From NCBI GenBank assembly GCA_019636475.1, contig JAHBXN010000002.1, positions 124,001 to 188,000 of the forward strand: a stretch of DNA of 64,000 bases. Direction: 5' to 3'. This document shows positions 17,325 to 20,261 of this stretch, one piece after another. How positions within the stretch are numbered: the first letter of the stretch is position 1; the number at the start of each line of letters is the position of its first letter. The notes beneath the pieces are model-generated. The model worked only from the letters and a program-made list of their open reading frames with translations. It had not been told where the DNA came from and made no database searches. A program made the translations under genes and the position numbers. This DNA is from Phycisphaerae bacterium. GTDB lineage: Bacteria > Planctomycetota > Phycisphaerae > UBA1845 > UTPLA1.

Positions 17325-20261
17325 TTATCGTCGCGATTTTGCCATGGATCGCGCGGGCTTCGACTTTGACGATGTCCTGCCGTTGCCCTTCAGCGCCGCT
17401 GTGGACATCGACTTTGGCTTTGGCTTCGGCTTCGCGCCCCCGTTGACCGGCGCAGCCGATCGTTTCGCAGATTTCGCGGAGGTCTTCTTTCCCTTGGCAC
17501 GACCGCCTTTGGCGCCGCCGGGGGCTGAACCGTCTGCGATGGTGGCCTGGGCCGCCGCCAGCCGAGCGATCGGCACGCGATAGGGAGAGCAACTGACATA
17601 GTCCATCCCGGCTGCGTGGCAGAACTTGACCGAAGCGGGATCGCCGCCATGTTCGCCACAAATGCCGATCTTGAGATCGGACTTGGTCGTTCGGCCCTGG
17701 GCGATGGCGTGCTGAACCAGCCAACCGACGCCGTCGAGATCGAGAGTCTGGAACGGGTCTTCCTTGAAGATGCCTGTCTTGCTCTGATCGACATAGTCGG
17801 GCAGGAACCGACCGGCATCGTCGCGCGACAAAGCCATGACGGTCTGCGTAAGGTCGTTGGTTCCGAAGCTGAAGAACTCCGCGACCTCAGCGACTTTCCC
17901 GGCCGTGATGGCGGCGCGGGGTGTTTCGATCATCGTGCCGACCAGATACGGCAGCTTCACGCCGGATGTCCCGATGATTTCATCGGCGACGGCTCGGGCG
18001 CGGTCCGTCAAGATGCCGAGCTCCTTCGAATCAATCGAGAGCGGAATCATGATTTCCGGAGAGACTTTTTTTCCGCGGCGACGAACTTCAACGGCGGCTT
18101 CGATGATCGCGCGGACCTGCATTTCGAGTATTTCCGGATAGGTGATACAGAGTCGGCAGCCGCGATGGCCGAGCATCGGATTGGATTCGTGCAACTGCTC
18201 GACGCGGTCGCGAATTTTCTCATACTCCACGCCGATCTGAGCCGCCAGCTCTCGCTGCTTGTCTTCCGTGTGCGGGACGAACTCGTGCAGCGGCGGATCT
18301 ACGAGTCGTATCGTGACGGGCCGGCCGTCCATCGCCTCGAAGATGCCGATGAAATCCTGGCGTTGGAAGGGCAGCAACCGGGTCAGCGCGGCCTCGCGAT
18401 CATCGCGCGTGTCAGCGACGATCATCTGCTGAATGGCGAGACGACGTTCCTCGGTGTCAAAGAACATGTGCTCCGTGCGGCAGAGACCAATTCCTTCGGC
18501 GCCCATTCTTACCGCATTCTCGGCGTCGTAAGGCGTGTCGGCGTTGGTCCGAACGCGAAGGCGCCGCACCTCGTCGCACCACTTGAGCAGCGTGTGATAT
18601 TCGGCCGGGAGCGTCGGCGTGACGAGCGGCAGTTCGCCTTCGTAGACGATGCCTTCGGACCCGTCGAGCGTCAGGAAATCGCCTTCGGACAGGGTTCGCG
18701 AGCCGATCGTCAGACTGTGATTGGCCTCGTCAATCCGCAGATCGCCCATGCCGACGATGCAGCACTTGCCCCAACCGCGTGCCACAACCGCGGCATGCGA
18801 CGTCTTGCCGCCCGTGGCCGTAAGAATGCCGACGGCCGCGTGCATGCCACCGACGTCTTCCGGGCTGGTTTCCTTGCGGACGAGAATGACTTTTCGGCCG
18901 TCAGCGTGCCACTGCTCCGCCTGATGCGCGGTGAACACAATCTGGCCGGCGGCCGCGCCGGGCACAGCGTTGATCCCCGATCCGAGCCGACGGGAATCCA
19001 ACTCGGCCGCGTTGTAGTTCGGGTCGATGATCGGGTAGAACAGTCGCTCGATGTCGGCGGCCTTGATACGGTTGATCGCTTCGGCCTTCGACAGGACGGG
19101 CTTCAGGGCGATGTCCGCATATCGCTTCGGGAGATATTTCTTCTTGAGAAGGCGGGCGGCCTCGGGCTTTGTGAGCAAGGGCTGCGTCGCCTGCTCGACG
19201 GCAATCCGGAAAGCGGCGGCGGGCGAGCGCTTGCCGCTTCGACATTGGAGCATGTAGAGCCTGCCGCGCTCGACGGTGAACTCAAGGTCCTGCATGTCCT
19301 TGTAATGGGCTTCGAGCATCGTGCGGACGCCGCACAACTGCTCATACACCTCGGAATGGGTCTTGGCCAGATCAGCCAGATGCAGCGGCGTGCGAATGCC
19401 CGCGACGACGTCCTCACCCTGGGCATTCATGAGAAGGTCGCCGTAAAACTCGTTCTTTCCCGTACTGGGATCGCGTGTGAAACAGACGCCGGTGCCGCTG
19501 TCTTCGCCCATGTTGCCGAAAACCATCTGGCAGACATTAACGGCCGTTCCAGGCAGGCCGCTGATCTTCTCGACGCGGCGATATGTCACCGCCTTGTCAG
19601 CCATCCACGAATTGAAGACGGCATTGATTGCGCCGACGAGTTGATCCCACGGATCCTGCGGGAAGGGCTTACCTGCCTGCTCATGAAAGAAAGACTTGAA
19701 CTGCCCGCAGAGGTCGCGAAGATTGGCTTCGCTGAGTTCGGCATCGGTTGAAACGCCGACTTCATGCTTCATGTGGGCGAGCTTTTCCTCCAGCGTCTCC
19801 TTGGACAGACCGACCACGACCGTTGAGTACATCTGAATGAATCGGCGGTAGGAATCCCACGCGAAGCGCGGGTTACCGGTGCATTGCGAGAGGCCTTCGA
19901 CCGAACGATCGTTCAAGCCGAGGTTCAGCACCGTCTCCATCATTCCCGGCATTGATACCGCCGCTCCGGAACGAACCGAGACGAGCAGCGGATTCTTCGG
20001 ATCGCCCAGCTTTTTCTTGCACGCCTTCTCGAGCTTCGCCAGATTTGCGCGAACTTCCTTCTCCAGTCCGTTCGCCCACTTCTTCTTATTCTCGTAAAAG
20101 AGTCTGCATGCCTCGGTGGTGATCGTAAAACCGCCGGGAACAGGAAGTCCGATGTGAGTCATTTCAGCGAGGCCCGCGCCCTTGCCCCCCAACAGCTGCT
20201 TCTGATCTCCGCGGCCTTCTGCTTTACCGTTCCCGAAGAAATACACGAACTTGGTGGCCAT
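17325..20261 (-). CDS. ppdK: Pyruvate phosphate dikinase with a Lys/Arg-rich C-terminal tail
   Basis: The protein has 978 residues; the family is usually about 870-910. PPDK interconverts pyruvate, ATP and phosphate with PEP, AMP and pyrophosphate. The N-terminal nucleotide domain begins LLGGKGAGLAEM. The phospho-His is in GGKTSHAAVVARG. The C-terminal barrel holds GTNDLTQTVMALSRDD and the catalytic Cys in GICGEHGGDP. The core ends at about residue 910. The last 68 residues contain about 14 Lys and 6 Arg, no Asp or Glu, with KPKPKPK and many Ala, Ser and Gly. This tail is not part of the normal enzyme. With enolase nearby it fits glycolysis/gluconeogenesis. Confidence 0.95.
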   Translation of the reverse strand: MATKFVYFFGNGKAEGRGDQKQLLGGKGAGLAEMTHIGLPVPGGFTITTEACRLFYENKKKWANGLEKEVRANLAKLEKACKKKLGDPKNPLLVSVRSGAAVSMPGMMETVLNLGLNDRSVEGLSQCTGNPRFAWDSYRRFIQMYSTVVVGLSKETLEEKLAHMKHEVGVSTDAELSEANLRDLCGQFKSFFHEQAGKPFPQDPWDQLVGAINAVFNSWMADKAVTYRRVEKISGLPGTAVNVCQMVFGNMGEDSGTGVCFTRDPSTGKNEFYGDLLMNAQGEDVVAGIRTPLHLADLAKTHSEVYEQLCGVRTMLEAHYKDMQDLEFTVERGRLYMLQCRSGKRSPAAAFRIAVEQATQPLLTKPEAARLLKKKYLPKRYADIALKPVLSKAEAINRIKAADIERLFYPIIDPNYNAAELDSRRLGSGINAVPGAAAGQIVFTAHQAEQWHADGRKVILVRKETSPEDVGGMHAAVGILTATGGKTSHAAVVARGWGKCCIVGMGDLRIDEANHSLTIGSRTLSEGDFLTLDGSEGIVYEGELPLVTPTLPAEYHTLLKWCDEVRRLRVRTNADTPYDAENAVRMGAEGIGLCRTEHMFFDTEERRLAIQQMIVADTRDDREAALTRLLPFQRQDFIGIFEAMDGRPVTIRLVDPPLHEFVPHTEDKQRELAAQIGVEYEKIRDRVEQLHESNPMLGHRGCRLCITYPEILEMQVRAIIEAAVEVRRRGKKVSPEIMIPLSIDSKELGILTDRARAVADEIIGTSGVKLPYLVGTMIETPRAAITAGKVAEVAEFFSFGTNDLTQTVMALSRDDAGRFLPDYVDQSKTGIFKEDPFQTLDLDGVGWLVQHAIAQGRTTKSDLKIGICGEHGGDPASVKFCHAAGMDYVSCSPYRVPIARLAAAQATIADGSAPGGAKGGRAKGKKTSAKSAKRSAAPVNGGAKPKPKPKSMSTAALKGNGRTSSKSKPARSMAKSRR

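Follow-up and report, generated by a model that had tools for sequence, protein, structure and literature searches.

The pyruvate phosphate dikinase (PPDK) encoded in the window, by which we mean the whole stretch of 64,000 nucleotides analysed, ends in a basic tail that is a genuine feature of the enzyme; its charge is common to the PPDKs of the order, while its length is its own. As a new point, comparison of the relatives suggests that the charge of the tail mirrors the charge of the core within the order. Our preferred reading, put forward tentatively, is that selection holds the PPDK of this order net positive through a disordered counterweight tail, whose most probable use would be to attach the enzyme loosely to nucleic acid. 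By comparison, what speaks for it is a conserved charge, few charge reversals, a near one-for-one compensation in the order and repeated appearance outside it, including at the N-terminus. Throughout, order, family and genus are the taxonomic codes of the genome set, and the order is that of the window genome.

The tail of the window's PPDK and of its relatives

The PPDK gene (Table 1) has an intact frame of 978 aa. The protein matched TIGR01828 with 1269.3 bits (curated cut-off 843.45), and the best stretch reached profile position 865 of 865 at residue 908. Its Pfam domains stand in the expected order, PPDK_N at 22-294, the PEP-utilizers mobile domain at 457-537 and PEP-utilizers_C at 555-906, and these three were the only domains at E <= 0.001, the winged-helix globular domain of histone H1 being absent. 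The motif of the phosphate-carrying His reads GGKTSHAAVVARG, with H489 invariant across 29 aligned sequences; we take GGxTSHAAVVARG to be the PPDK motif that holds this His. In the best 80 named loci by nearness to the window PPDK, the closest are mostly MAGs of Phycisphaerae, Phycisphaerales or Planctomycetota, and the farther ones belong to Omnitrophota, Acidobacteriota and others. An ORF of 352 aa on the plus strand converges on the gene and ends facing the PPDK stop; it had no Pfam match.

Table 1. Features of the PPDK gene and of other ORFs mentioned in the text (window positions unless a locus is given).
Feature	Position	Strand	Basis
PPDK ORF, 978 aa	17325-20261	-	
PPDK stop codon	17325..17327	-	ORF listing
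Basic, predicted disordered C-terminal tail, residues 909-978	17328..17537	-	past family model end, composition, low pLDDT, relatives' tails
KPKPKPK stretch, 6-bp repeat, about 3.5-4.5 copies	17412..17432	-	repeat and pattern search
PPDK core, residues 1-908 (ATP-grasp, phosphohistidine and PEP-binding domains)	17538..20261	-	TIGR01828 and Pfam PF01326, PF00391, PF02896
Converging ORF, 352 aa	16213-17271	+	
MutY-like protein (HhH-GPD and NUDIX_4), basic N-terminal stretch	21898-23106	+	
PrpD/MmgE-like enzyme of the window's genome, 43-aa basic C-terminal tail	L312:17413-18918 (G000:C1:517413-518918)		
Lon protease, Lys-rich C-terminal tail	L267:12097-14604		

The 70 residues past the family model contain 14 Lys, 6 Arg, one Asp and no Glu, and hydrophobic residues are almost absent. 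The last 68 residues hold all 14 Lys and 6 Arg with no Asp or Glu, in agreement with the preliminary description, which had counted a 68-residue basic tail with about 14 Lys, 6 Arg and no acidic residue. It had placed this tail at 17325-17560; the tail exists, but the upper coordinate corresponds to residue 901, inside the last core helix (893-909). Net charge is +19 for the tail, about -7 to -9 for the core and about +12 for the whole protein. AlphaFold2, run with 28 relatives as alignment, gave that last helix and then pLDDT below 50 over residues 913-978 (about 33 from 921 onward); as far as a model can say, the tail is intrinsically disordered, as had been proposed for it. We also searched the genome for the KxKxKxK type of pattern and got 13 matches; the KPKPKPK stretch is the only one of them that belongs to an open frame longer than 100 aa and lies there in a C-terminal tail with net basic charge. 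Such a pattern is not rare in itself, since its reversed control was matched 21 times.

For the relatives, 101 genomes (including the window's own) were searched, 93 had a PPDK match at E <= 1e-100, and 83 loci were taken. Five rows were dropped, three without a C-end (L020, L056, L061), one running off its contig (L031) and one whose frame breaks 99 residues upstream (L062, whose own tail is basic all the same), which left 78 distinct complete C-ends. It turned out that all 78 have a net-positive tail past the position of residue 908. The tails range from 6 to 141 aa (median 47) and are at least 20 aa long in 70 of 78. In the pooled composition (4,131 residues), K+R makes up 41.4% vs 3.3% for D+E, with K 29.3, R 12.1, A 18.6, T 8.6, S 8.2, G 6.1 and P 5.6 percent. 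The sequences differ among genera, judged by eye and by composition, and tails aligning at 45% identity or more were found by comparison within genera only. Charge kept and sequence varied is the pattern that the preliminary description had named as support for its claim.

The same description had considered a frameshift or read-through unlikely, and had named close relatives ending at the normal C-terminus as a sign of sequencing or assembly error. No such ends were found, though the five tree rows nearest the window PPDK have tails of only 11-21 aa, the one point in favour of an error. Those short tails are basic too, tails of at least 70 aa recur in several other genera, and one same-genus pair is conserved codon by codon (see below), so that a frameshift, read-through or assembly error is hardly credible as the source of the tail.

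Charge balance between core and tail, and selection on the tail

To describe the charge relation, we kept the 76 of 78 order PPDKs whose core was long enough. Core and tail net charge are strongly and inversely related (Spearman -0.80; contrasts r -0.66, sign-flip p 0.0002), and the slope is near one-for-one (OLS -1.10, contrasts -0.86). On average the core carries -8.4 and the whole PPDK +12.5; net charge is positive for 16 of 76 cores and for 70 of 76 whole proteins, the remaining 6 being zero or negative. The 16 members of the window's family illustrate the rule. The window PPDK itself has core -9 with tail +19 in this count. Four others (L011, L012, L016 and L048) combine cores of -12 to -17 with tails of +31 to +35, six combine cores of +1 to +6 with tails of +5 to +9, and intermediate members have core -2 with tail +6, core -5 with tail +14 and core -4 with tail +21; L007 (core -4, tail +4) and L021 (core -6, tail +4) lie off the rule. 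Outside the order (n=71), core and tail charge showed no such relation (contrasts r -0.15, p 0.10), and a sign test over all rows was not significant (126 signed contrasts of 133 rows, 71 opposite and 55 same, p 0.18).

PPDKs are oligomers, and this, like the near one-for-one relation in the order, would also suit a tail that acts on PPDK itself, folding over acidic patches on the core that carries it or on adjacent cores, with effects on solubility, stability or self-clustering, and with no outside polyanion. We regard such self-interaction as possible but doubtful: the compensation overshoots, ending at a mean of +12.5 instead of zero, and PPDKs of other classes are mostly acidic and have no tail. 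In six sampled genomes the tail charge drops as the median ORF charge climbs (Spearman -0.81, p 0.05, n=6), and therefore proteome-wide acidity may drive the charge of the tail. A wider proposal is one of charge homeostasis, in which selection would fix the net charge of PPDK and a free-form tail at either end would supply the charge missing from the evolving core. In a lineage with proteins drifting towards acidity, this glycolytic/gluconeogenic enzyme would thereby keep its hold on nucleic acid; we consider the proposal conceivable, with considerable doubt.

Selection was compared in same-genus pairs (19 in total, four of them left out for tail identity below 45%). L011 and L012, with near-identical tails of 97 aa, differ by 25 silent codon differences and 5 amino-acid differences (dN 0.028, dS 0.462, dN/dS 0.06). 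The other 11 pairs are looser, with tail dN of 0.04-0.50 and saturated dS in several; dN exceeds dS in L063/L064 (0.111 and 0.012), and L063/L065 gave 0.141 and 0.276. Purifying selection on the tail is clear in the best pair and uneven in the others. We then simulated neutral change in nine same-genus pairs, at most one per genus, with 459 nucleotide differences, two transition settings and 1,000 runs. Exchanges between basic and acidic residues were observed 3 times vs 14.6 or 25.1 expected, and K/E exchanges once vs 10.5 or 20.4. Amino-acid changes numbered 159 vs 262 or 257 expected. For the basic-acid exchanges, K/E among them, and for all amino-acid changes, 0 of 1,000 simulations were as low under either setting. 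K/R exchanges (16 vs 13.3 or 22.7) are in line with expectation; the alignment matrix slightly prefers K/R over K/E, a small bias in these counts.

The loose dN/dS of some pairs, the wide range of tail length and the 6-bp repeat in the window tail would all agree with weakly constrained growth, in which a short C-terminal Lys stub would lengthen through slippage and recombination and, since it remains soluble, would do the cell no harm. We think this rather unlikely, since the best pair has a low dN/dS, basic-acid exchanges are in deficit, the correlation with core charge in the order survives phylogenetic correction, and all 78 order PPDKs with a complete C-end bear a tail. Self-interaction and weakly constrained growth are nevertheless the serious rivals to attachment to nucleic acid.

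Basic ends outside the order and on other proteins

Most PPDKs that we read from other orders and classes have no long C-terminal tail. Among the best 30 by score of 239 matching phylum genomes, none has a tail of at least 20 aa (0 of 30). In 40 further phylum loci, chosen for family spread and by position alone, 9 have such a tail, basic in 8 of the 9 (the exception is L242). Once copies of the order's loci are set aside, 47 distinct named loci remain, and the tail reaches 20 aa in 9 of them, all basic. Omnitrophota and Acidobacteriota PPDKs carry C-terminal stubs of 6-21 aa with 3-9 Lys, a point in favour of weakly constrained growth. On a FastTree tree of 193 rows, some of them on long branches, the state "basic, 20 aa or more" needs 19 changes, which suggests that the long basic tail was gained or lost many times; the change count cannot tell which. 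Taken as whole proteins, all 15 same-class PPDKs from beyond the order are net positive (mean +18.5, through the core or the N-end), compared with 2 of 10 other-class PPDKs (8 of 10 not; mean -12.5), mostly without a tail.

Some PPDKs without a basic C-end have a Lys-rich N-terminus, for example L178, L186 and L295 of the same class, and L094, L095 and L119. We defined such an N-terminus as starting at ATG, with predicted start codons, and having at least 10 aa, at least 4 K and a net charge of at least 0.2 per residue. Counting copies, such an N-terminus occurs in 18 of 48 PPDKs that lack a basic C-end, vs 12 of 157 that have one; over 173 distinct rows the numbers are 18 of 48 vs 12 of 125 (raw Fisher p 6e-5). 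In the other two frames of the same DNA, taken as a control, it occurred in 1 of 410. Of the 23 same-class PPDKs that lack a basic C-end, 10 have no Lys-rich N-terminus by this rule either. Switching of the charge from the C-end to the N-end stands as a pattern only, because 10 independent pairs on the tree gave no support for it as a correlated change.

To see how common basic ends are, we sampled six order genomes for mechanically called ORFs with a minimum length of 120 aa, 1,213 in all, and asked which of them have a net charge of at least +10 together with 5 K or more over their last 40 residues. Only 5 of 1,213 had such an end (the window PPDK, a PrpD-like enzyme of the same genome, an HU-type protein, an unassigned protein and a Lon protease), which argues that basic tails are not a widespread feature of the proteins in these genomes. 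Among the order PPDKs, in contrast, 59 of 78 pass this rule. The PrpD tail is private: 15 family homologues end 0-14 aa past the same point (14 in G003), and a tail of at least 20 aa is found only in the enzyme of the window's genome. Basic tails can therefore arise without being conserved, again in favour of weakly constrained growth. Taking either end and every rule, 13 basic-ended ORFs were collected besides PPDK, of which 7 are linked to DNA, transcription or tRNA: HU, MutY-like, DNA alkylation repair, two DksA-like, SelA and Lon, the last counted for its presumed DNA binding. The remaining 6 comprise two metabolic-looking proteins (PrpD-like and lysine-decarboxylase-like), three without a Pfam match and one outside the Pfam search. 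The MutY-like protein is encoded in the window itself.

Candidate partners of the tail

Partner genes were surveyed in 46 genomes, comprising 18 of the order, 21 of the same class without a long C-terminal tail and 7 tail-bearing ones outside the order. PPK1 was found in 4 of 18 order genomes vs 20 of 21 same-class ones, and in 5 of the 7 tail-bearing genomes outside; it was not found in 14 of 18 order genomes and is present in that of the window. PPK2 was found in 10 of 18, 15 of 21 and 4 of 7, respectively. Seven of the 18 order genomes have neither PPK1 nor PPK2, and their tails measure 18 aa (G001), 19 (G002), 11 (G007), 84 (G023), 109 (G034), 73 (G043) and 43 (G047). Binding of polyphosphate, which the preliminary description had offered as one role of the tail, is disfavoured as a general function because of these seven genomes, four of them with tails of 43-109 aa, and because PPK1 is scarce in the order. 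We hold it very improbable, although PPK1 occurs in the window's genome and in most tail-bearing genomes outside the order, and although AlgP, with an H1-like tail, localises to polyphosphate granules according to the text excerpted from PMC9239181.

A membrane pyrophosphatase, which would share pyrophosphate with PPDK, matched at E <= 1e-15 in all 46 genomes, with 37 scoring above the curated cut-off, and polybasic stretches bind anionic lipid, so a tail bound to anionic membrane, for instance near this enzyme, has to be weighed. A processed form of T. cruzi PPDK at the glycosomal membrane, reported in an excerpt of PMC7082770, is a further point for it. We consider membrane binding improbable, as the pyrophosphatase is equally present where the long tail is absent, and thus not informative, and as hydrophobic residues are nearly lacking in the tail. 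A link to the PPDK regulatory protein PDRP was dropped (1 of 18 order, 0 of 21 same-class and 1 of 7 tail-bearing outside genomes; 2 of 46), and so was PPDK replacing pyruvate kinase, which matched in 45 of 46 genomes. The genome G008 (96% complete) has a PPDK and no pyruvate kinase match at E <= 1e-15.

For attachment to nucleic acid, the steps would be as follows. The disordered polybasic tail would offset the charge of the folded core and hold the order PPDK at a mean of about +12, with selection acting on tail charge and leaving tail sequence and length largely free. Through its positive charge, the oligomeric PPDK would touch a polyanion of the cell weakly and at many points, nucleic acid (nucleoid, RNA or ribosomes) being the likeliest candidate, and this contact would place or concentrate PPDK in the cell and not alter catalysis. 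Nucleic acid is compatible with the tail and, by analogy, the most likely target; we prefer it because no other polyanion is as abundant in a cell, roughly half of the further basic-ended proteins collected here serve nucleic acid, the tails of AlgP and PhaF are alike, and Lys-rich regions are linked to DNA.

The closest known likeness is with AlgP and PhaF of Pseudomonas, whose H1-like KPAA-repeat C-terminal domains are, like the PPDK tail, disordered, C-terminal and rich in Lys, Ala and Pro (PMC9239181, in excerpt). That excerpt states that Lys-rich C-terminal peptides of AlgP bind DNA, that the AlgP tail is needed for the spacing of polyphosphate granules, and that the C-terminal domain of PhaF is thought to bind DNA and tether granules to the nucleoid. 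Unlike in these proteins, the cargo of the PPDK tail is a central metabolic enzyme and the tail charge follows the core charge; tandem KPAA repeats of their type were not found in the window tail, which has only the 6-bp repeat. DNA-binding proteins are enriched in Lys-rich low-complexity regions, as PMC6821194 has it. Going by titles in its reference list, Streptomyces topoisomerase I and mycobacterial Ku have Lys-rich C-terminal repeats, a polybasic low-complexity C-terminus as in PPDK; unlike PPDK, both are DNA-binding proteins whose tail contributes to that binding. In the titles and abstract openings that we searched, no account of a basic PPDK tail was found.

Among PPDKs, the window protein also matched PDB 2x0s, which we take to be the trypanosome glycosomal PPDK with a C-terminal targeting signal. 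Like the window's, that enzyme would then have extra C-terminal residues tied to cell location; unlike it, it presumably carries a short peroxisomal signal and no long polybasic tail.

In conclusion, polybasic tails have already been described for proteins that bind DNA and for granule proteins. If such a tail is conserved on a central carbon enzyme and its charge is adjusted to that of the core, this would show cleanly how selection can act on bulk charge and not on sequence, and it raises the question whether the cell must place its PPDK, and whether net charge alone would suffice to do so.
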